Source: Pipra filicauda (taxonomy: Eukaryota > Chordata > Aves > Passeriformes > Pipridae). From it: DNA of 64,000 nucleotides. The translations under genes and the position numbers were made by a program. Positions 1,799 to 57,511 of the stretch are shown piece after piece (within the stretch, counting starts at the first letter, position 1; the number at the start of each line of letters is the position of its first letter). The notes below the pieces were generated by a model. It was not told where the DNA came from and ran no database searches. It saw only the letters and a program-made list of their open reading frames with translations. Location: positions 2,418,001 to 2,482,000 of the forward strand of contig NW_024104443.1 of assembly GCF_003945595.2 (NCBI RefSeq), read 5' to 3'.

Positions 1799-4700
1799 CT
1801 GGGGGATAACAAAAAAAAAATCTTTATTCAGTAAATTAGTATTTTTATGGAATTATCCTAGTGTTAAATTTTCCAAACACTTTAAGCAATGCTAGCTAAT
1901 ATTTCTTTGTCCTTCCTCTTACAAGCAAGTAAGGAAACAAGATTGTGAGTCACAAATTCTTAAACCAGAACCGCTCATGTTTATAATATATCCTGCTTCC
2001 ATAAAAAACACAGGGTGAGGAATTACATCTGATAAATTCTGAAGCAAATCTGTGACTTCTGAGTAAGAAATAACTCCTTATTTAGAAGTCTTTAAATCTA
2101 AAGTTAAAGCTCACACTCCATCTCTGGGTAATTCAGGGGCTGATTGTTACAGTGATTTTTTTTTTTTAATATGTCCTTGGATAAAATGGATCCAGTTTCT
2201 GGGATGAACTTTTATGTTCTGGAAAATTGATTTATTCTATATGTAAAACTCAGTAAACCTGGGAGTGGAAACTACTAATCTGAGCATTCAACCACTGTCT
2301 GCCTGACAACACTGACAAGGTATAGAATGCCATTGTCGTCACAGTTTCATATTAATTCCTAAAATAATCTGAAGATTTAATACATGTGCTCTAGATTCAT
2401 CACTGTTTTTCAATTTTTCCATACCTTAAAAAGAAATTTTTACCATTACAGCCTTTTTTGTTAGTTTATACATTTAACTTGACTTTTCCCTTGTATAGTT
2501 TTTGTCTTACAGGCCTACGAAAGAATTGAGCTACTGGGGAAAGAAAACTATATGTTCAGAACAGAGGACGAAATTATTTCTAACAGATTCTTGAATATTG
2601 GCTAAGAGGTTAAAAAATAACCTGCAAGTAAAGTGGCAAGAGCTGGTGAATGGTGAGCTAATGAACTAGAACTAAAAACTGGTCATGTTGACCACACTAC
2701 TCGTCTGAGCGGGCATAAAATTCTGTTGTGTTCACGTAAGTGCTGCACAGCTATGTAATGATGAATTTAGCTGATAAATCCAAGAATATACTAAACATAT
2801 AGTAAATTAAACTCTAATTCTATGAGGCCAAGAACAGAACTCTAATTGATCAAATTGTTGCAAGGACTACAGCCAATGAGCTTGTTGGCTTTGTGGTTTT
2901 TAAATTCCAGGGTTAGTTTATGACTTTCTTTTCTGGTAGACAGGCACACTTCTGTAATATTTCTTTGTATTTTAAGAGTCTCCTGGTAGGTTTAAGGGGC
3001 TATGCATGGTCAAAGATTGGTAATAATAGATATTTGTCCAAGAAAAGTTTTATACTGAACTGCTGTTTGTTTTGATTTAGACTCTCTAATCATGGAAGAA
3101 AAAAATTTACAATTCCCCACGTAAAATCAATTAGCATAACAAAGTGGATTAAAAAGATTAAGAAAGTGCAGAAGAATAAACATAAAATTAAATCAAATAG
3201 GACATTCTTAAATAAAATATTCTAGAAATATTCATGAAAATTGAAGGGGACCTGCAGTATTAGAGAACATAAACTGTCTTCAAGGGGAAATTTTGCTGTA
3301 GAGCAATTAAGACATTTCCTTGATATTATTGTACCTCTAAATTATTCCATCTACCAATCAGTTTTGTGAAAGTAGGAAAATGAAAGCTAACCTTAAAATA
3401 AAAATAAAATGAGCTACCTTGAATTCTGAGGCAGTACAAGGCAAATGAAAACCGAAATGTTGCACAGCAGAGCAAGGAACTAAGAGTTTCATAGATTTTC
3501 TAGAGAAGTACAGTAAAATAATGGAAAAATAAACCGTGGCAGGTCTTTTAAAGACCATTTTGCTGTTGTAGTGTTTCATCAATTTTATCAATAAAAAATG
3601 AATACTGATGTTAGAATTTGTTTTGTCCCCAAAAACAGTGCTAAACCATCCATACCATAACAGAATTATACTCTAATTTCTAAACTACACCTTTAGTTTA
3701 ATTGTGTTATCTTATCCTATTTGTTTGAATTACAGGGAACAAGGAGCAGAGAAGATTCTTCACTATCTCTTCACAGTAGCATCTCATGCATTTTGAAACC
3801 ATTAGCATGTTCAGCCATCAGTCTTTGTTTCTCTTAACAGTGCTACTTTCATAATTTTTCACCATATGCAATTTTTCTAGCCACCTAATCATATCTGCTG
3901 CTTTCCAGCAGGTCACACCCTAATTTAGGTGTTCCTATAAAACTGAACTACACACACTACCTGGTTCAATAAAAACACATCACAAAATAGAGAATGAAAT
4001 GCATGGTTTTTTACATTTGAAGATTTTGGATCTAAAGATAAAAGGGCAGAATTAAGCTGACCAATTGTACACACCCAAAGTAAAGATGTTTATATGTGAG
4101 CTAGTCACTCTAGGGTATCTTTAGTAAGCCTTATCAATAAAGGATTTGCCTTCTATCCCAAGAGAGACTAAATTCCAAAGATTTAGAGTTAATTTAGAAG
4201 TATTTGTTGGGAAAAAATTAAATATTCCCCAGAGAGACTGTGTCTTCTCTTTGATTATACAGGGAGTTAAAAGTTACTTGCTGAAAAGTACATCTCTATT
4301 TTTAGTCTGATAAAACCTAGCCTGTGTGCCCCTACATATACATATTTTTGAATCTCTTATCTTGTCTCCAGAATTTCAGGTTGTTTTTTTTTAAATCTCC
4401 AGCTGTTATAAATAAAACAATCCAAACCAACCAAACAAAGAAACAAAAATAATTAAAGGAGAGATATATTTAATGGAAGTATGAGTTCTATTCCCATCTA
4501 AATTTTTTCTGAAATGAATGAAATATAGCTATTTTTCTGAGATACCTGGCAACAATGACATTATTTAATGATAATTCAAAATGCTAACATTAGTAGTTCT
4601 TTATCCTTCCTATGAAAAAGATGTAAGAACACACATAATCCACAGTTTAATCTAATTTATTCTTTTGATGACTTACAGGGGCAAACCCTGGAAGAAGTCT

Positions 4701-5015
4701 TTAATTATTTCCACTGATTAAATATCATCTGGGGTAAATATATACCTTTTAACTCAAATATATTAACGCTAAGACATGCTTAGAGAACCCTTTACTCCAA
4801 GCCAACTCTGCTTCCGTTTCAGCATACAACAGAGCAGATACGGAATGTAGTCATTAAGGACAAGACCTGCCTGTACTTTTTACCAGGGTACCTTGCTAAG
4901 CCAGAGTATCACAATTGAAAGTAATAGCTTTGCTATATTTTCCAGCCATCCTTGCTCATTTTTCAATACTTTCCTTACTGAAGAACACATCTTATCATAG
5001 ATATTTTAATTTTAC

Positions 5016-5076
5016 CTGCTAGCAGGAGTCCCACAATGACTGCTGATGATAAATGTTGTTTTACTGTAACTACTAC
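5016..5076 (-). other. candidate exon encoding a membrane-like helix (speculative)
   Basis: On the minus strand an open frame ends at a CAG/GTAAAA donor (GT at 5014-5015) and codes for a strongly hydrophobic stretch, SSAVIVGLLLA. It reads like a single-pass transmembrane segment. Several acceptor AGs are possible upstream (exon ends at 5063, 5076, 5082 or 5084), all with modest pyrimidine tracts. The exon ends in phase 1, compatible with the 1704-1798 segment. No family is recognised, and AT-rich DNA often yields hydrophobic frames by chance. Confidence 0.13.
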
Positions 5077-5996
5077 CTGTAACTCTTATGAAGAGGTAAA
5101 TTCACCCTTCCTTACTGTCTACATTTACCAATATGTGTATGGGCAATATACCTCCTGATGTGACGGCTATATTTATGTAAGTAAAATGCTTAAATCCAGT
5201 ACATGGGTCCAAATAGTCGTCAAATCATCTATGCTCTTCAAATTTTTATCATCTATGGCAAAGTTTTGACCCCTGCCAACTAACAAACTCCTTAACATTA
5301 GATAAGGCTTAGTTTATAACGTAGCAAGGATTCAGAATAATCCCCAACAGAGGAGGGAGAAAAAAAGAATTTGCTAGAATATATAAAATTTTTACTGTAT
5401 CAGATAGCCTTGGCCCACATAATGGTTGCCTGTTCATTTTATTCGGTGCCAAAATATGATAGGAAATGTCATCCTTTTAAAAAGCTGGTATTTCTAGGAG
5501 ACCTCTGTTTAAAATGCATTTGTGTATGTGTTTTTAAAACAGTTTAGGGGGTTTTAAAAGAACTAGAGGAGAAACGTTTCAACCAGCTGAAAGAAAAACT
5601 GCTTGTGCTCCATATTTGTATTCCCAGATCAGATTTATAAAGCAAAGACAAAAGGAATTAAAGATAAAAGAAATTAAAGAAAACAAAACCAGAGAAATTT
5701 TCAAGTGGTAAACATGAATCTGTTTATACAGAAGAGTTGCATCCTTGTTCCTTCCTGAGCTTTTAATAATGAAAACATTAATGGTAATGAAGCTGGAAAG
5801 ATCCCTGGGCATAGCTATTGGGTATATACCAAACAGGGACAAGTATGCCATATCTCTGCCAGATGTTATAGTTGCAAGGAAAAACAAGCTGCAGGTCTTC
5901 ATTGACTGTTTGATGAAAGAATTGCTGAAGGGAGGTTAGCAACAGGGTGGAAAAACTGTCCCTTGGGCTAAAATATGCCAACAACTCTGTAATTCT

Positions 5997-6578: not shown

Positions 6579-9500
6579 ATAAAATTTGAGAGGGAAGGAC
6601 ATGACATAGACAATACCTCTTAGAGCATTTTGCTACCAGAAATGTTAACTAAATAGCCCTATCCTCCATTCCTTCCAAGCATTTATCAAAAACACAGTAA
6701 CAGATGTGGGAACCATAAACAGTGGAAAAGTAGTCAACGGGATCTTCTTTCAATTTTAACAAGTGTTATTTAATGCATTTTTCCCATATCTGTGAAAAGC
6801 ATTTTCTGTTTGTACTCAGTTCATCAGAGTGTTGCTTGCAAATATGCTACAGAAAAATACATCTGGAGTATATGCAATGGACCAGATTGCAGAGGAACAG
6901 AAGTGTCTACAAACCCACTTACAATCTGGGAAATTCAAAAAATTGTTCACAGACCCAGTTAAAAACAAAGCAAGCAATGTTAGCTGATATATGTTAGCAC
7001 AGAAGACCTTAAACACAAGCATGTTTTAATTTCAACACAAATGTGTTACATATTATTTCTATAGAAATTATTTTATACATTCATCACCTGCAAGTTTAAG
7101 TCTCCCATCCATAACCACGGTGAACTTCTAAGCATATCAGTAAGAACTCTTAGGGAAGAAAGAACTTCAGTGTATTTTAAAAAGTCATTACCATGAAATT
7201 TGCTTACTTCAGTAGCATGTACTTTAGATTCTGCTTATTTACCCAACCTATGCCTACCATTTTAAAATTATGCATGCAGAGTAAATCTGCGGAAAAAAAC
7301 CAAAACCTAGGTTATTATAAGGACAGTGAACAATCACAGTAGAAAATAGATGAGCATAAGAAAAAGACCTGAAATAATGATTCTTCTTTTAGCCAGTATT
7401 CATTGAATTAGGAGAGATTGGAATAATCTTTACAAAGTGAATAAGGGAACTGATGCATGGAAATAATTCTCTCATTTGCTTGACATTTTTAATTCAACCC
7501 ACAGGGAGTTTTAGCAGTCTCGGGATAATCTTGATTTCGTATGAAAGTCACGTCAGCAAGTAATGTGAATCCAGAGACCTTGAAAAACAGTTTCTTGTAC
7601 TGGATGCCCATGTTGTCAGTTTCTTAAAAAAACAAATTTTGCAAAAATTTGAAGAAGTACCTAGAGGGTAGATTGTATTTAAAGTAACTAAGAAAGTTAG
7701 AGGGTGAAAGTTTCTTTTCTTCGTGTTTTTTTTACTGAAGATACCCGAGATATCTAAAGAGTTATATCCCTTCCTCTCTTTCTTTAGTTAGCTCATTTAA
7801 TGAAAAAGGGAAGCAATACATTCTCTTCTGTGTGAGTACACTCCCTATGGTGTCATTGATTTTTGTGTATCTCTCTTTATTGCCTTCAGAGAGATTCTGT
7901 TGTATGTTTTCCTGATGTTGTATTCTAGCAGGACAGATCCAGTAAGAGATAATTCAGATGTTCGGGATATTCAAGAAATTCTTTTATAAGGTTCATCCTA
8001 ACCCTCTATCAATCATGAGTACTTTTCAGACTATTGATAGTATTTCAGATTTGATATGTTGTCCAACATGTCAGATTTACTTTTTCAGTTTTTGGTTCAT
8101 TCAGTTGAAATTGAAGCAGATCAACATCAAACACAGTGAAAATTCTCTGTATTTCAGTACACCACTGCATTCAAGTCTGGCCTTGTACTGAGAAGTGCTT
8201 TATGGTATATAGATGTATACCAGGGCATGTAACTACAGGAACTATTCTTCTATTTTCAGAACTGAGGGTTGTAGAAAATTTTCATTGCTATTATTATTAC
8301 ATATTGAGGCATTGTCAGTCTGGAAAACCATCTAGGTTGGCTGCATGCCTGCAGAGGAACTCAAGATCAGCTCAGAACTCTAGGCAATTCACAGAACGGA
8401 AGCTGGAACAAGCTGTAGCAGGAAATACTTCTCAACCTCTACAAGCCACACTGCTTCATCAGTCATTATAGAGGCAAATGTTCTCCTCCATTCAATCCAC
8501 ACATATTAGCAAATGATGTTATATCATAATAAAACAGGACAAGGCAGGAAATTTCTGCCTGATTGTTACAGTTCTCACTCATGTTGCTCACATTGTCAGT
8601 AGCAGTTTCCCTCTATTCTTTTTCCACCTGTCCTTTCCCACCATACTCCTCACATCAGAATGGGTTCTGTGCCTCACTAGTCTGACAGTAAGAGATCTTT
8701 CAACTTGCAACTTAAATTTTTCTTTGGCTAGCAAAGCGTGCTCATTTTTTATTCAGTTTATGAATTTTTTTTAGCCTCAGAGTTTTTCCCTTTGAAATTT
8801 TTTACAAACTGTAAGCATTTACTGTCTTATTCTTATTTTGCTAACTAAACAAGTTATTATAAGGAAACTCTATCCCTCATCATCTTAATAGATATTTTTT
8901 CCTCCTTCTTATCAGTGTGATTTGAAAAAATCCAATATGAAAAAACAAAGGTAAAATAAGAAAAAAAAAGAAATTGATAATATCAAAATTACTTACATTT
9001 TGGCATGATATAGACTTACTGATGCACTCTCCAAAACAGATTTTCTGTTTTAAATAAAAGTAATTTATAAATTTGCATTCACTATCCAATATTATATACA
9101 ACACTTTTGTTATATATAAAGGAAAAACTAACTCCCTTTTCTCTTTTCAGCTATGCTATATTTATTTCTCCTTCATCTTCTTAAAGGAAATGCAATGCAA
9201 AATACATCCATAAGTATTTTTCATGTGAATATTGAAACTCAAAATTTGCAAATATGTGCAAGACTGGTGAAAGAGAATTGCTTAGTGCTTATGCACTTCC
9301 TGCTGGCCAGAGTAGGCTATAAAAAGACTGGAAGGTATAAACATAAAATGTAAGATATTTTCTTTTGAATAGGAAAGCAGAAAATCCATTCAATCACTTG
9401 GCACACTAAATGTCATTTTCTTATCACTTTATCATGACAATCCATAAGATTCGGCATGGAATCTGGGAATAACTTCCTTTTGCTCAAAGGAAAAATAAAG

Positions 9501-41611: not shown

Positions 41612-42523
41612 TTGGTGCTGGTCACTAGTGATGTCCCCCAGGGATCAGTGTTGGGCTCAGTCCTGTTAAATATCTTTATTGATGATTTAGATGAGGGGAT
41701 TGAGTCCATCATCAGCAAATTTGCAGATGACACCAAACTGTGGAGGAATGTCAATCAGCTGGAAGGCAGAAGGGCTCTGCAGAGGGACCTGGACAGACTG
41801 GAGAGATGGTCTGATTCCAACGGGATGAGGTTCAACAAGGCCAAGTGCCGGGTCCTGCACTTTGGCCACAACAAATCCATGCAGTGCTACAGGCTGGGCA
41901 CAGAGTGGCTGGAGAGCAGCCAGGCAGAGAGGGACCTGGGAGTTTGGATTGATAGGAATCTGAACATGAGCCAGCAGTGTGCCCAGGTGGCCAAGAAGGC
42001 CAGTGGTATCCTGGCCTGGATCAGGAACAGTGTGGCCAACAGGACCAGGGAAGTGATTCTTCCTCTGTACTCAGCGCTGGTGAGGCCACACCTGGAGTGC
42101 TGTGTCCAGTTCTGGGCCCCTCAGTTCAGGAAGGACATTGAGATGCTGGAGCAGGTCCAGAGAAGAGCAACGAGGCTGGCGAAGGGACTGGAGCACAAGT
42201 CCTATGAGGAGAGGCTGAGGGAGGTGGGGTTGTTCAGCCTGGAGAAGAGGAGGTTTGGGGGAGACCTCCTCACTCTCTACAACTCCCTGAAAGGAGGTTG
42301 TAGCCAGGTGGGGGTTGGTCTCTTTTCCCAGGCAACTATCAGTAAGACAAGAGGGCATGGTCTGAAGCTGTGCCAGGGGAGGTTTAGGTTAGATATTAGG
42401 AAGAAATTTTTTACAGAGAGGGTAATCAGGTACTGGAATGGGCTGCCCAGGGAAGTAGTGGGTTCTTCATCCCTGGAGGTTTTTAAGATGAGACTGGATG
42501 TGGCACTTAGTGCCATGGTCTAG
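41612..42523 (+). pseudogene. CR1 ORF2, reverse transcriptase palm to C-terminus
   Basis: A 303-codon frame codes for the PQGSVLG block, [20 protein letters not shown] with the intact catalytic FADD, and the thumb region ([20 protein letters not shown]). It continues with [74 protein letters not shown], and [10 protein letters not shown], to a stop at 42521. This is the normal C-terminal end of CR1 ORF2. It is long and clean, indicating a fairly young copy, but it is separated from the upstream part by a frameshift at 41560-41612. Confidence 0.9.
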
Positions 42524-42926: not shown

Positions 42927-43256
42927 GTATGGCCAGTCTTCGCGAGTGAAGATTTGGGAAAGGTCATTACCCTTCGAGCCTGCGCAGTGGATTTTTTTAG
43001 GTGAGACCCAGTGTGCGCTGAACTGAGCCCACCCTTTAATCCTGAGGTTCATCTGCCGGGGCCGAGCAAGCTTGGACACTGGCAGTGAGGTCCTCAGGAT
43101 GTAGGTTTGTTTAGAGTGACCTTCTCTTAGATGGATGGCCTTACAGGGCTGACGAGCTCCATCTGCCTGGGGGAGTTTTTCCCTGGCCGGAATCGAACCC
43201 CGGTCGCAGCGGTGAGAGTGCTGCAACCTTAACCACTAGGCCACCAGGGCTCCCCT
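42927..43256 (-). mobile_element. tRNA-Glu-derived SINE with AviRTE-type tail (minus strand)
   Basis: On the minus strand the element starts with a tRNA-like head that resembles tRNA-Glu(CTC). It has GCCCTGGTGGCCTAGTGG with an A box TGGCCTAGTGG (43233-43243), an anticodon-like CTCTCACC, and a perfect B box GGTTCGATTCC (43189-43199). The body of about 200 bp is shared with 38789-38972. The 3' end is TTCCCAAATCTTCACTCGCG plus AAGACTGGCC, the AviRTE tail motif, so it was probably copied by AviRTE machinery. The flanks share TGAATAT (42920-42926 and 43259-43265), a possible target duplication. It is probably full length. It matches my recollection of AviRTE-mobilised SINEs in suboscine birds, but the family name is uncertain. 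Confidence 0.88.
43189..43243 (-). promoter_or_regulatory. internal RNA polymerase III promoter (A and B boxes) of the SINE
   Basis: The A box TGGCCTAGTGG and B box GGTTCGATTCC read on the minus strand, with tRNA-like spacing. Both match the canonical consensus, so the copy may still be bound by TFIIIC. Confidence 0.8.
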
Positions 43257-53949: not shown

Positions 53950-54370
53950 CTCTCCTCCTCCTCCATTCCGTGGGGGAAGCCAACCTTTTTTACTCCAAAT
54001 TTTTTAATTTTTTCACAAGTTTTCTCCAAACATTTTAGCCTCCCTTTATTTCATTCCAAATACCTCATTTTTGAAATAAAGTTTTTATTTCCCCAAATCC
54101 CCATTTTCCCCTAAATCTTCCTTTTCCCCCTACAAATTCCCCTTTTTTACCCCAAAATACCTCATTTTCCTGCATATTCCCCCTTTTCACCCCAAATTCC
54201 TGTTTATTAATCCCCAAATCTCATTTTTCCCTCCTAAACTCCTGTTTTTCTCCCCCTTAAAATCCTCACTTTAAGAGCAACTCCCTCATTTTTCCTGAAA
54301 AATCCCCTTTATTCCCCAAAAATCTCCCATTTTTCCCTCCACAGAATACTCATACCCATAGGAACCCCCT
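53950..54370 (+). repeat. C/T-rich, G-poor degenerate minisatellite
   Basis: About 420 bp with very few G residues on plus are built from variants of CCCCAAATTCCCATTTTTCC-like units of roughly 20 bp. It is a strand-asymmetric degenerate array, preceded by a GC-richer part (53815-53950) with GGGGGCCCCCAAAAGTGGCC. Confidence 0.7.
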
Positions 54371-54442: not shown

Positions 54443-54448
54443 CTCAGG
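54443..54448 (+). repeat. left copy of 6-bp target site duplication
   Basis: CTCAGG directly precedes the 5' LTR and is repeated exactly at 57506-57511 after the 3' LTR. Removing the provirus and one copy leaves a continuous host sequence. Confidence 0.95.
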
Positions 54449-54761
54449 TGTGGAGAAGCAAGATTCAGGATGGGAACAGTTCCAGGCATGAAGAAAAGCA
54501 TACAGCAATTGGCAGGACTTTCATATGGACTTTCACTGTATTCATGCTACACAGTGCACAACTGCACATGCCCAGGCTTCCTCCTCCCCCTTTTGCCTGT
54601 GCCCTGTTCTGATTTGCTCCCCCATTTGTCTGTCTGATAGCCCACTCGATGTTCTGCCCCTGCCCCTGGCAGGACGGTTAAGAATCGGGCGCGCCTGAAT
54701 AAACAAGTCTGCTTGCACCCTTCCTCGTGTCCTGTCCCCTCTTCCCTTCGGACCCGCAACA
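54449..54761 (+). mobile_element. 5' LTR of the gag-only provirus
   Basis: The LTR is 313 bp with TG...CA ends. A polyadenylation signal AATAAA lies at 54698-54703, just after GAATCGGGCGCGCCTG. No canonical TATA box is obvious; TTAAGAA near 54679 is the nearest candidate. It differs from the 3' LTR by AAGAA versus GAGAA near 54491 and by CA versus TG near 54670. Confidence 0.95.
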
Positions 54762-54762
54762 G

Positions 54763-54780
54763 ATGGCGCTCACCGTCGGG
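54763..54780 (+). promoter_or_regulatory. primer binding site, lysine-tRNA type
   Basis: TGGCGCTCACCGTCGGGC starts two bases (GA) after the 5' LTR. It differs at three of 18 positions from the tRNA-Lys(1,2) primer site used by many betaretroviruses. This supports the ERVK-type assignment. Confidence 0.8.
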
Positions 54781-54914
54781 CAGAAAAGGTTTTTACCTTA
54801 AGAAAACCTCTCCCACGCCACAAAGGGCTCAGACAGCGCTGAGAGAAGCGTTTTCGCCTCGCTGGTCCTTCCCGGTAGAACCCCAGATTACGGCAAGATA
54901 GCCACCGCACCGAG

Positions 54915-54924
54915 AAAGGTGAGC
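54915..54924 (+). promoter_or_regulatory. leader splice donor
   Basis: AAAG/GTGAGC with GT at 54919-54920 lies between primer site and gag start, where retroviruses keep the major donor. It pairs logically with the acceptor at 56956-56957. Confidence 0.65.
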
Positions 54925-54975
54925 TCCGGGAAAAACCCCTAATCCCATCTCCCACCCTCACAAAATAATTTTGCA

Positions 54976-56910
54976 ATGGGCCTCTCGCTATCTACCCCTC
55001 AAAAGTTTGTATACCGCAAGCTTAAAGACTTTATTTTGGAAAATGGACACCCTTTAGACAAAAAATCCGCAAAATCCCTTGCTAAATGGCTTGAAAACAG
55101 AGGGGAAGCAATCTCCGACAACATGTCCCTGAAAGACTGGGAGAAAATTGGATACAATATCTGGAGAGCTAAAGAGAGGGGAGACAAAACGGCTACTGAA
55201 GCGTTAATAGCTTGGAGATTGATTTTGATGGTGCTACAACATCAAATAACCAGTCCCAATGAAAATCTCCAAGAATCTGAGCAAAAATCCAAGCCCCCAT
55301 CCCCGACAAAAGACAAGCCCCGGAAAAACGAGCACGGCGGGAGGGAAAAAAGCGGCGCAGGGAACACGCGGTCTTGGCAACATGGTGACGGGGGGGGTGA
55401 AGGGCGCTTGCACGCGCACGGGGTCGAAGCACGCGGGGGGAGATCGCGGGAACGCACGCCGCGTGGCAGCACGGCCCACAAACTTTTCGCGCGCGTTCCG
55501 TCGGTCCCGCCCCCCAGCCCGCCCGTGGAAGCTCAGCCGGCACCGCCCCCCAGCCCGCCTTCGCGTCCGCCCCCCTACACCCCCGGCACGCCCAAGGACC
55601 CTCCCACCAGAACGCCCTCTCCCTCCAGCGCTGCTTCTACCCCCACGTCATCACCCTCCCGGGGTAGACGGAAACTAAGGAGCAGGACCAGAGCCTCTCC
55701 CGACGATAACACCCGGGAAGATGGCCGCACCCATGAAGCCTTTGTTACCGAGGCTCCCGGTAGTTGCAGGATGACAAATGCCTCTCTTCCATGCAATGAT
55801 ATTTGGAAAGCTTTCCGGACAGAAGCTGCACAGGCTAACGATGCCGAGTTTTTAAAAGCTTTTCCAATTTACCTAGAGGAAGTTCGTGCTCTTGAGTGGC
55901 GTCCGGTGTCCTATACTATGTTAAAGGACATCAAAAAAGCGATTGTAGAGTACGGTTTAGGCTCACCCTATACCGTTGGACTTTTTGAATCGTTTTTTCT
56001 CGCCTGCCACTTAATACCTTATGATATCAAAGCGGTAATTAATGGACTGTTATCGACTGTGCAGGCATCCATTTTTGAAGCGGAATGGAAACGTCTTATA
56101 GTTAAATATGTCAATGAAAAGATGGAGAGGCGTGGTATTCCTGTAAAAAATGCTATTGATATGCTGTATGGAGAAGGCAACTATGCCAGCCGACAAGACC
56201 AGGCTCTTGTGGATTTAAAATACTTAGATATTACAAAAGATCTGGCAATGGAGGCCTTTAAAAAAGTTGCTGATGCATATGTCCAAACACCCTCCTTCAC
56301 CCTAATTCATCAGGGCTCAACAGAACCTTTTGTGGACTTTATAACCCGGCTAAAGGAAGCTATAGCACGGCAAGTCCAGCAAAAGGAAAGCCAAGACATT
56401 CTGTTTAATAAACTTGTGATTGAAAAGGCTAATGAAGATTGCCAACAAGCCTTAAAAATGCTAAAAGATCCCACACTCCTGGAGATGATAGAAGCTTGTA
56501 AGAATGTGGGGTCTAATTCTCATAAAGCAAGACTAATAGCTGAAGCTTTAGCTGGACCACAAACCTGTTTTCACTGTGGAGAGACAAGACATATTAAAAA
56601 GAACTGCCCACAATTAACTACAAAGACTGAGCTTCCAAAGACGCCGTGCAAACGATGTGGGAAAGGCAGACACTGGACTAAAGATTGCCGCTCCCGTACT
56701 AACATTTATGGACAACTGCTGCCCCCGAAAAGGTCACCAGACTTGAGAAGAAAAGTGACTTTTAATTCAATGCCAGATCTTAAACAGTGCACCTGTGAGC
56801 TGTCAAGAAACAAGGCAGCACCCCCTCAACCGCGTTCCATCCTGCGTAGCCCATCCCTTCAGCAAGTGCCAGCAAACCACAACAATCCCTACAGTTCCCT
56901 TATCACATGA
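54976..56910 (+). CDS. gag: intact retroviral Gag polyprotein (betaretrovirus-like)
   Basis: The single ORF of 644 codons has no stop or frameshift. Gag assembles the virus-like particle and packages RNA. The first ATG after the leader gives an MGLSLS start, a myristoylation signal for membrane targeting. A basic helical matrix follows (to about residue 95). Next is a long Pro/Arg/Ser-rich linker in very GC-rich DNA with a PPPY late-domain motif at residues 198-201. The capsid covers roughly residues 265-525 with the major homology region QGSTEPFVDFITRL at 446-459. Two CCHC zinc knuckles lie at residues 531-544 and 558-571. A 73-residue tail follows the second knuckle. Length is normal for betaretroviral Gag. 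No protease frame overlaps the end, so cleavage would need a protease in trans. Function in the host, either particle formation or domestication, is inference. Confidence 0.95.
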   Translation: MGLSLSTPQKFVYRKLKDFILENGHPLDKKSAKSLAKWLENRGEAISDNMSLKDWEKIGYNIWRAKERGDKTATEALIAWRLILMVLQHQITSPNENLQESEQKSKPPSPTKDKPRKNEHGGREKSGAGNTRSWQHGDGGGEGRLHAHGVEARGGRSRERTPRGSTAHKLFARVPSVPPPSPPVEAQPAPPPSPPSRPPPYTPGTPKDPPTRTPSPSSAASTPTSSPSRGRRKLRSRTRASPDDNTREDGRTHEAFVTEAPGSCRMTNASLPCNDIWKAFRTEAAQANDAEFLKAFPIYLEEVRALEWRPVSYTMLKDIKKAIVEYGLGSPYTVGLFESFFLACHLIPYDIKAVINGLLSTVQASIFEAEWKRLIVKYVNEKMERRGIPVKNAIDMLYGEGNYASRQDQALVDLKYLDITKDLAMEAFKKVADAYVQTPSFTLIHQGSTEPFVDFITRLKEAIARQVQQKESQDILFNKLVIEKANEDCQQALKMLKDPTLLEMIEACKNVGSNSHKARLIAEALAGPQTCFHCGETRHIKKNCPQLTTKTELPKTPCKRCGKGRHWTKDCRSRTNIYGQLLPPKRSPDLRRKVTFNSMPDLKQCTCELSRNKAAPPQPRSILRSPSLQQVPANHNNPYSSLIT

Positions 56911-57178
56911 TCCCAATCCTAAATTCTCCCTTCTAACATGTTCTGCTTACTTTCCAGGATCTCGTAGTCCACAGAAGACCACTATCACTAAGCTTTTAGA
57001 CACCATGGAGCAGTGGCATCTCGGGCTGGAAACAATTTTAGGGGGGGAGTCACTCAGCAAATGCAGCTGTCCACTTGTTTTGAAATTTTGCTTTCTCTGT
57101 TTGTTTTGTTACTAACTATTTCTTGTGTCACAGCATGCTGCAAGAAGGACTATCGCAACAGGCATCTTTCAAACTAAT
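56911..57178 (+). other. short post-gag region with splice acceptor, pol and env missing
   Basis: Between gag and the 3' LTR there is no protease, polymerase or integrase text. A good acceptor (TTCTGCTTACTTTCCAG, AG at 56956-56957) precedes an open stretch to 57115. That stretch ends in a Cys/Leu/Phe-rich hydrophobic run, possibly the last piece of an envelope transmembrane domain. A G-run at 57041-57047 is a possible slippage point. The internal deletion must have removed roughly the whole pol gene and most of env. Confidence 0.6.
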
Positions 57179-57179
57179 A

Positions 57180-57192
57180 AGAAAGGGTGAGA
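57180..57192 (+). promoter_or_regulatory. polypurine tract
   Basis: The purine-rich AGAAAGGGTGAGA ends immediately before the 3' LTR at 57193, in the position used to prime plus-strand synthesis. A single T interrupts it. Confidence 0.75.
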
Positions 57193-57505
57193 TGTGGAGA
57201 AGCAAGATTCAGGATGGGAACAGTTCCAGGCATGGAGAAAAGCATACAGCAATTGGCAGGACTTTCATATGGACTTTCACTGTATTCATGCTACACAGTG
57301 CACAACTGCACATGCCCAGGCTTCCTCCTCCCCCTTTTGCCTGTGCCCTGTTCTGATTTGCTCCCCCATTTGTCTGTCTGATAGCCCACTCGATGTTCTG
57401 CCCCTGCCCCTGGTGGGACGGTTAAGAATCGGGCGCGCCTGAATAAACAAGTCTGCTTGCACCCTTCCTCGTGTCCTGTCCCCTCTTCCCTTCGGACCCG
57501 CAACA
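57193..57505 (+). mobile_element. 3' LTR of the gag-only provirus
   Basis: The LTR is 313 bp, the same length as the 5' copy, with three substitutions. AATAAA is at 57442-57447. It ends CGCAACA and is followed by the CTCAGG target duplication. Confidence 0.95.
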
Positions 57506-57511
57506 CTCAGG

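Follow-up and report, generated by a model that had tools for sequence, protein, structure and literature searches.

The element at 54449-57505 and its Gag

The window analysed here, a 64-kb stretch of the genome of the manakin Pipra filicauda (contig NW_024104443.1, positions 2,418,001 to 2,482,000, N count 0), contains an endogenous retrovirus (ERV) at 54449-57505 on the plus strand. It has the build long terminal repeat (LTR)-gag-remnant-LTR, without pol or env. This element, together with its relatives elsewhere in the genome, is the subject of the present analysis. A perfect 6-bp target duplication, CTCAGG, lies on both flanks (54443-54448 and 57506-57511). The 5' LTR (54449-54761, with AATAAA at 54698) and the 3' LTR (57193-57505) are each 313 bp, start with TG, end with CA and differ at 3 positions. 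Direct comparison thus bears out the matched repeats and the duplication that a first-pass annotation of this DNA had described. The same annotation called a Lys-type primer-binding site. A Lys(1,2)-like site is present at 54764-54781, with 15 of 18 bases matching the type sequence. The exact type occurs in 3 of the 19 copies dissected below; the primer sites of these close copies fall into three recurrent types, perhaps for different primer tRNAs.

The splice donor and acceptor and the polypurine tract proposed earlier were also located. The donor AAAG/GTGAGC (54914-54924, cut 54918/54919) lies 5' of gag and is present in a pol-bearing relative, L041, as well. The first acceptor (56945-56962) is cut at 56957/56958, the exon beginning at 56958. 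To these we add a second acceptor at 57110-57133, with a branch-point-like TACTAAC at 57110-57116 and its AG at 57132-57133. The polypurine tract (57179-57192) directly precedes the 3' LTR at 57193. Between gag and the 3' LTR is a non-coding remnant of 282 bp (56911-57192). All of these features are on the plus strand.

The gag frame, 644 codons at 54976-56910 on the plus strand, is fully open, as had been claimed, and is the longest open reading frame (ORF) listed for the window; three others reach 200 codons. It begins with MGLSLS, presumably a myristoylation-type N-terminus, and carries PPPY at 55567-55578, which we take to be a late-domain type motif, within a variable middle (55198-55797). 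Two CCHC knuckles follow at 56566-56607 and 56647-56688. Pfam models match as Gag_p24 (1.4e-21), Gag_p24_C (1e-17) and zf-CCHC_5 (4.5e-9), with a weak, sub-threshold Gag_p10 match. The closest solved structures by sequence are a 'Gag protein' (8c9m) and then the ERV-K Gags 6ssj and 32yy. With both p24 domains, two zinc knuckles and class II structural hits, the protein is class II, betaretrovirus-like (ERVK). For its capsid piece the best protein match, 523 aa long, comes from P. filicauda and is an ERV-K member 24 Gag-like protein; one copy, L026 (C498), has an ORF of 523 codons. The other 18 matches, at no more than 64%, are from manakins (9; Pipra, Manacus, Chiroxiphia and Lepidothrix), Pitangus (8) and Willisornis (1). 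The variable middle occurs in two principal forms and shows several in-frame indels; it either comes from another lineage or is under diversifying pressure.

Copies of the element and selection on gag

Genome searches covered one 1.08-Gb assembly. With the junction behind gag as query (all 34 candidates scored), 19 places, window included, are at least 96% alike across 292-293 of the 293 bases. The capsid-nucleocapsid part of gag (CA-NC; best 40 of 69 candidates scored) gave 20 places at 96% or more, window included, and the next best are at 86-90%. For the LTR query the best 40 of 345 candidates were scored, and further LTRs are uncounted. Every one of the 20 CA-NC places is built as LTR-gag-remnant-LTR and has neither pol nor env, so other copies do share the deletion, and the closest relatives are gag-only and not full-length. 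Nineteen copies, window included, were dissected. Each shows the build over a span of 2.7-3.2 kb; in L024 the leader match and the 5' end region of gag are missing, and the 5' LTR of L025 lacks its first 34 bases. Perfect 6-bp target duplications flank 15 of the 19, and all 15 are different. None was found for L014, L017 and L025, and for L009 the script gave 4 bp, which by eye become 6 bp (CACCTT) if the 3' LTR lost its last base. L014 may be a recombinant or an assembly chimera, because its 300-bp 5' flank is identical to that of L021, its 3' flank is different and it has no duplication. The twentieth place, L027 (G000:C983), carries a gag 92% like the window's (97% in CA-NC) inside a largely different LTR pair of 463 bp (683-1144 and 3674-4135, 97.4% alike); from the comparison, this LTR would have been exchanged by recombination. 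There is no sign of the assembly gap or collapse that could have mimicked such an element: the window is free of N, and the copies lie at separate places with distinct duplications.

The LTR pairs of the 19 copies differ by 0-10 substitutions and 0-3 gaps. With a neutral rate of 2.3-4.6e-9 per site per year, the insertions would date to about 0-7 million years ago, that in the window to 1-2 million. In several copies the 5' and 3' LTRs are of different subtype, which points to template switching between co-packaged genomes and to ages inflated by it. Twelve of the 19 copies have open gags of 628-657 codons. The gag is shortened in six (L010, L013, L016, L019, L021 and L026), and that of L024 is without a start. 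MGLSLS, PPPY and both knuckles are kept in all 12 open copies, among which indels are multiples of three, except in L022 and L023 with 16 and 20, summing to 36. Paired LTRs, a gag ORF, no pol or env, many independent copies and a recent intact Gag are what define a gag-only ERV family, and all are found here.

The ratio of nonsynonymous to synonymous change (dN/dS) among copies, a comparison that the first-pass annotation had proposed, is well below 1. Pooled over the 12 open copies it is 0.18 in the N-terminal matrix part (MA-N), 0.60 in the variable middle, where nucleotide diversity (pi) among the 19 copies reaches 0.16, 0.15 in CA-NC and 0.35 for the whole gag. Between the window copy and seven older gag-only copies, described below, CA-NC dN/dS is 0.17-0.31 at dS 0.34-0.54 (79-360 codons each). 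CA-NC variants among the 19 copies, one shared stop excluded, number 17 nonsynonymous to 31 synonymous when shared and 30:20 when private, against a neutral expectation of 2.4:1 (Fisher p 0.017). The corresponding counts are 4:6 and 13:10 in MA-N and 64:38 and 48:21 in the variable middle. This contrast is the pattern that selection on a replicating lineage, followed by decay after insertion, would leave. If so, a single copy with an open frame says little, and it is the frame kept between subfamilies that is telling. Because the compared copies all carry the deletion, purifying selection appears to have acted on the gag-only elements themselves, unless recombination with pol-bearing kin intervened.

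Probable origin by deletion, the 3' remnant and pol-bearing relatives

Seven older places (L028-L034) share the remnant and have pieces of gag that are 69-89% alike. They were found with the remnant as query, which could favour conserved remnants; the independent CA-NC gag search, among its best 40 of 69 candidates (C726 left out), gave no further gag-only copy. L032 and L034 have LTR pairs of their own, 98.3% and 91.6% alike, and therefore more than one gag-only lineage was active. In or beside L029 (G000:C760) lies other sequence with pol domains, an open ORF of 684 aa at 3609-5660 on the minus strand with RNase H and integrase domains, apparently another retroelement inserted in an old gag-only copy. 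A midpoint-rooted tree was built from a 480-nt gag piece, with L029 excluded and 8 of the other 18 young copies included; on it the 16 gag-only rows group in a single clade (98/96). The pol-bearing L041 comes next (99/99), followed by the gag-env element L037 and the pol-bearing L040. The single clade makes it probable that the build has one origin.

The remnant itself records what was removed. Its parts at 56931-57004 and 57003-57068 align to the pro region of L041 (7842-7915 and 8121-8186), and 57067-57147 aligns behind the gp85-type env ORF of L037. Three blocks were therefore lost: two within pro, of about 375 and 205 bp, and a third that reaches from early pol through to where env ends. 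L034 has the second and third breaks as in the window element and keeps more of pro. L037 (G000:C616; gag 4995-3089, Avian_gp85-type env ORF 2801-1806, pol missing) is a second kind of pol-less element from the same gag group; its LTR pair is 96% alike, and a run of 141 N lies outside its LTR-to-LTR span.

The gag-pro frameshift signal is also affected. The heptamer G GGA AAC is kept in three of four pol-bearing rows (L040, L041 and L051). In L041 it stands at 7355, with a pro ORF at 7349-8158 in the -1 frame (RVP 1e-18). It is absent from all 14 aligned gag-only rows, which read AGGAAAC or AAGAAAC instead; the window element has A AGA AAC at 56805-56811 (plus strand). The change common to the gag-only rows turns Ser TCG to TCA and is silent in gag.

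A slow rate of change in this 282-bp non-coding remnant before the 3' LTR is reported here as new. Over the 19 copies, pi is lowest in the middle of the remnant, 0.004 at 56999-57148, with 0.017 and 0.014 in neighbouring bins, 0.013-0.027 in CA-NC bins and 0.008 in the first LTR bin. Against the seven older copies, divergence (K) is 0.066-0.107 in the remnant, 0.15-0.32 in the LTR and 0.13-0.15 in the leader (measurable in three of the seven). The ratio of remnant K to CA-NC dS is 0.13-0.27, that is, the remnant changes 4-7 times slower than synonymous CA-NC sites. The stretch at the second acceptor is 90% alike in L037, ending there in CATAG, and in C88 the second acceptor AG is lost. From the sequence we infer that the remnant may act in cis on the RNA, in its splicing or export. 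It keeps no ORF. A micro-ORF at 57005-57115 was considered as conserved and rejected: among the older copies, a TGG codon reads TAG in C760, C1027 and C99, a stop stands further along in C597, and C498 is without the ATG.

Pol-bearing relatives were sought with the pol of L041 (best 40 of 83 candidates scored) and their pol pieces characterised by Pfam scan. L041 itself has gag domains, pro and a reverse-transcriptase match. Besides it there are at least 39 pol places, at 72-81% to L041, among these best 40. Among the best 40 CA-NC candidates, 10 of 11 gag places at 68-70% adjoin a pol place. Two pol-bearing families, L049 and L050, have an exact Lys(1,2)-type primer site.

Elsewhere in the window, a 303-codon ORF with a partial RVT_1 domain at 41612-42523 is probably a LINE fragment, and ARAGORN reported a tRNA-Glu (ctc) at 43179-43250 on the minus strand. 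Just upstream of the insertion, at 54041-54333, are direct repeats that are degenerate and rich in pyrimidines, with 31-nt copies 65-77% alike. An Rfam scan of the window gave no family at gathering threshold. The first-pass annotation also described all other elements of the window as broken; ORF lengths and Pfam matches of four further ORFs did not suffice to confirm this.

A probable gag-only lineage and its place among known systems

We consider it highly probable, from the genome sequence, that the element belongs to a class II (betaretrovirus/ERVK-like) ERV family that is gag-only and non-autonomous, arose by deletion and has multiplied since. A gag-pro-pol-env ancestor would have lost pol completely, env almost completely and the greater part of pro, and the resulting lineage would then have multiplied in at least two subclades. 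Its Gag would assemble particles and package its own RNA, while protease, reverse transcriptase and integrase would come in trans, probably with the Gag-Pro-Pol of co-assembling pol-bearing relatives, and the conserved remnant would act in cis on RNA splicing or export. The earlier proposal of a non-autonomous family with its own Gag and a borrowed polymerase and integrase thus holds for the family, the shared deletion and the selection on gag; the borrowing is what we infer. The differing leaders of the pol-bearing families, together with selection on gag, would suit a split of tasks: the element would package its RNA with its own Gag and borrow no more than Pro-Pol. It is possible, though we would put it at somewhat under even chances, that a betaretroviral lineage gave up its enzymes once, lost its frameshift signal and has persisted through at least two subclades as a capsid-carrying parasite. 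It would be held together by a selected Gag and by a non-coding 3' element of about 280 nt, which has two splice acceptors and is more constrained than capsid-region synonymous sites. This element would represent a cis-acting RNA signal of a kind new to class II ERVs, perhaps identical with the unexplained one upstream of the 3' LTR in deer-mouse ERVKs.

Several observations weigh against this account. It comes from the genome sequence of one assembly. Gag is broken in 7 of the 19 copies, and private gag variants look weakly constrained. The tree is built on a single 480-nt piece with a midpoint root, and its L040 branch is long. Recombination is evident, both from the several copies with LTRs of different subtype and from L031, which has a 30-nt deletion in common with the young clade. 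The pol-bearing L047 (AGGAAAT) and the gag-env L037 (AGGAAAC) are also without the heptamer, and its loss is therefore not unique to gag-only rows. In MA-N (69-71 codons), dS is only 0.23 for L033 and 0.19 for L034, which reduces the slowness of the remnant there to about 2.5-fold. Covarying RNA structure in the remnant was rejected, with 0 of 61 predicted pairs compensatory. As to helpers, none that is intact was found among the pol-bearing relatives scored. The gag of L041 is split between two reading frames, and the 7.9 kb examined downstream yielded no 3' LTR. In L051 (C1146) one open stretch contains protease; a second one carries the reverse-transcriptase thumb, RNase H and the beginning of integrase, and the palm domain between the two is cut short. 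The LTR and leader of L049 and L050 have no useful similarity to those of the gag-only family, and use of their enzymes is therefore not obvious.

A one-off deleted provirus that happens to keep gag would look just like a single copy of this element. It is refuted by the 20 places at 96% or more with a common build, and by the different target duplications of 15 of the 19 dissected copies, which leave it a negligible chance. Host co-option or 'addiction', in which Gag serves the bird and the selection on gag is host selection, has in its favour that gag is constrained and that such a role has been proposed for BHIKHARI in zebrafish and ENS-1 in chicken (PMC10996621). However, many copies show the constraint, and shared variants are under more of it than private ones, as replication selection predicts. 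No single locus stands out, and unlike a domesticated gag gene the element is multi-copy, with LTR pairs and target duplications. We regard co-option as improbable, although an added host role would still be compatible with the data.

Of similarly low probability, in our judgement, is a hidden autonomous member, a low-frequency, unassembled or exogenous virus that replicates and leaves the gag-only copies as repeated defective by-products. That no intact helper was found among the best-scoring candidates speaks for it, and the same possibility is raised for BHIKHARI-1 in PMC10996621. Yet L041 falls outside the gag-only rows on the gag tree, and these rows have common deletion breakpoints and lack the frameshift heptamer that an autonomous member would be expected to need.

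On this reading a retroelement can be reduced to its capsid gene and yet be kept under what looks like replication selection, a point relevant to the question of why vertebrate genomes so frequently retain and recruit Gag proteins. It also separates the parts that a class II retroelement would supply itself (Gag, leader, LTRs and 3' element) from those it could borrow. The roughly 20 young copies, the older gag-only copies and the pol-bearing kin provide a comparison set for the function of the conserved 3' element.

The TR-GAG elements of plants are LTR elements with a gag domain only, and are LTR retrotransposons, not retroviruses. HeT-A of Drosophila provides Gag in cis and takes reverse transcriptase from elsewhere, and is a non-LTR telomeric element. 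Among vertebrates, PMC10996621 describes BHIKHARI-1 and -2 of zebrafish, lokiretrovirus relatives, as non-autonomous, with one long gag ORF and without pol or env; BHIKHARI-1 was recently active, with young copies that have full-length Gag and no known helper. The manakin family is likewise a gag-only non-autonomous family with young copies and an open Gag. It differs in belonging to another retroviral group, with a betaretrovirus-type capsid and two CCHC knuckles, and in having been examined for post-deletion selection, a single clade and loss of the frameshift site. The same source presents ENS-1/ERNI of chicken as a non-autonomous variant of ENS-3/Soprano encoding Gag (PMC10996621). Gag-only ERVs have thus already been described in vertebrates, one bird included, which qualifies the first-pass view that this life style is rarely described in birds. 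ENS-1/ERNI resembles the manakin family as a young bird ERV spreading in a non-autonomous, Gag-encoding form; in contrast, it is sister to the ERV-L clade and has a known reverse-transcriptase-bearing variant, ENS-3 (PMC10996621). The p24 models and ERV-K structures matched by the manakin Gag set it apart from an ERV-L-type Gag.

In the literature searched, which included PMC6523648, PMC5006616 and PMC3362752 and had most subscription journals outside it, we found no betaretroviral gag-only or non-autonomous gag-bearing bird ERV. The mysTR-related ERVK subfamilies of the deer mouse, like ETn/MusD as cited in the same survey, are class II with non-autonomous forms and autonomous relatives (PMC10089650). 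The stretch best conserved between these subfamilies is reported to precede the 3' LTR directly, its function unknown, and the manakin remnant has the same position (PMC10089650). They have no obvious coding capacity (PMC10089650), whereas in the manakin family gag is kept and under selection. Taken together, the manakin family is most likely a betaretroviral variant of the known gag-only ERVs, and new as such.

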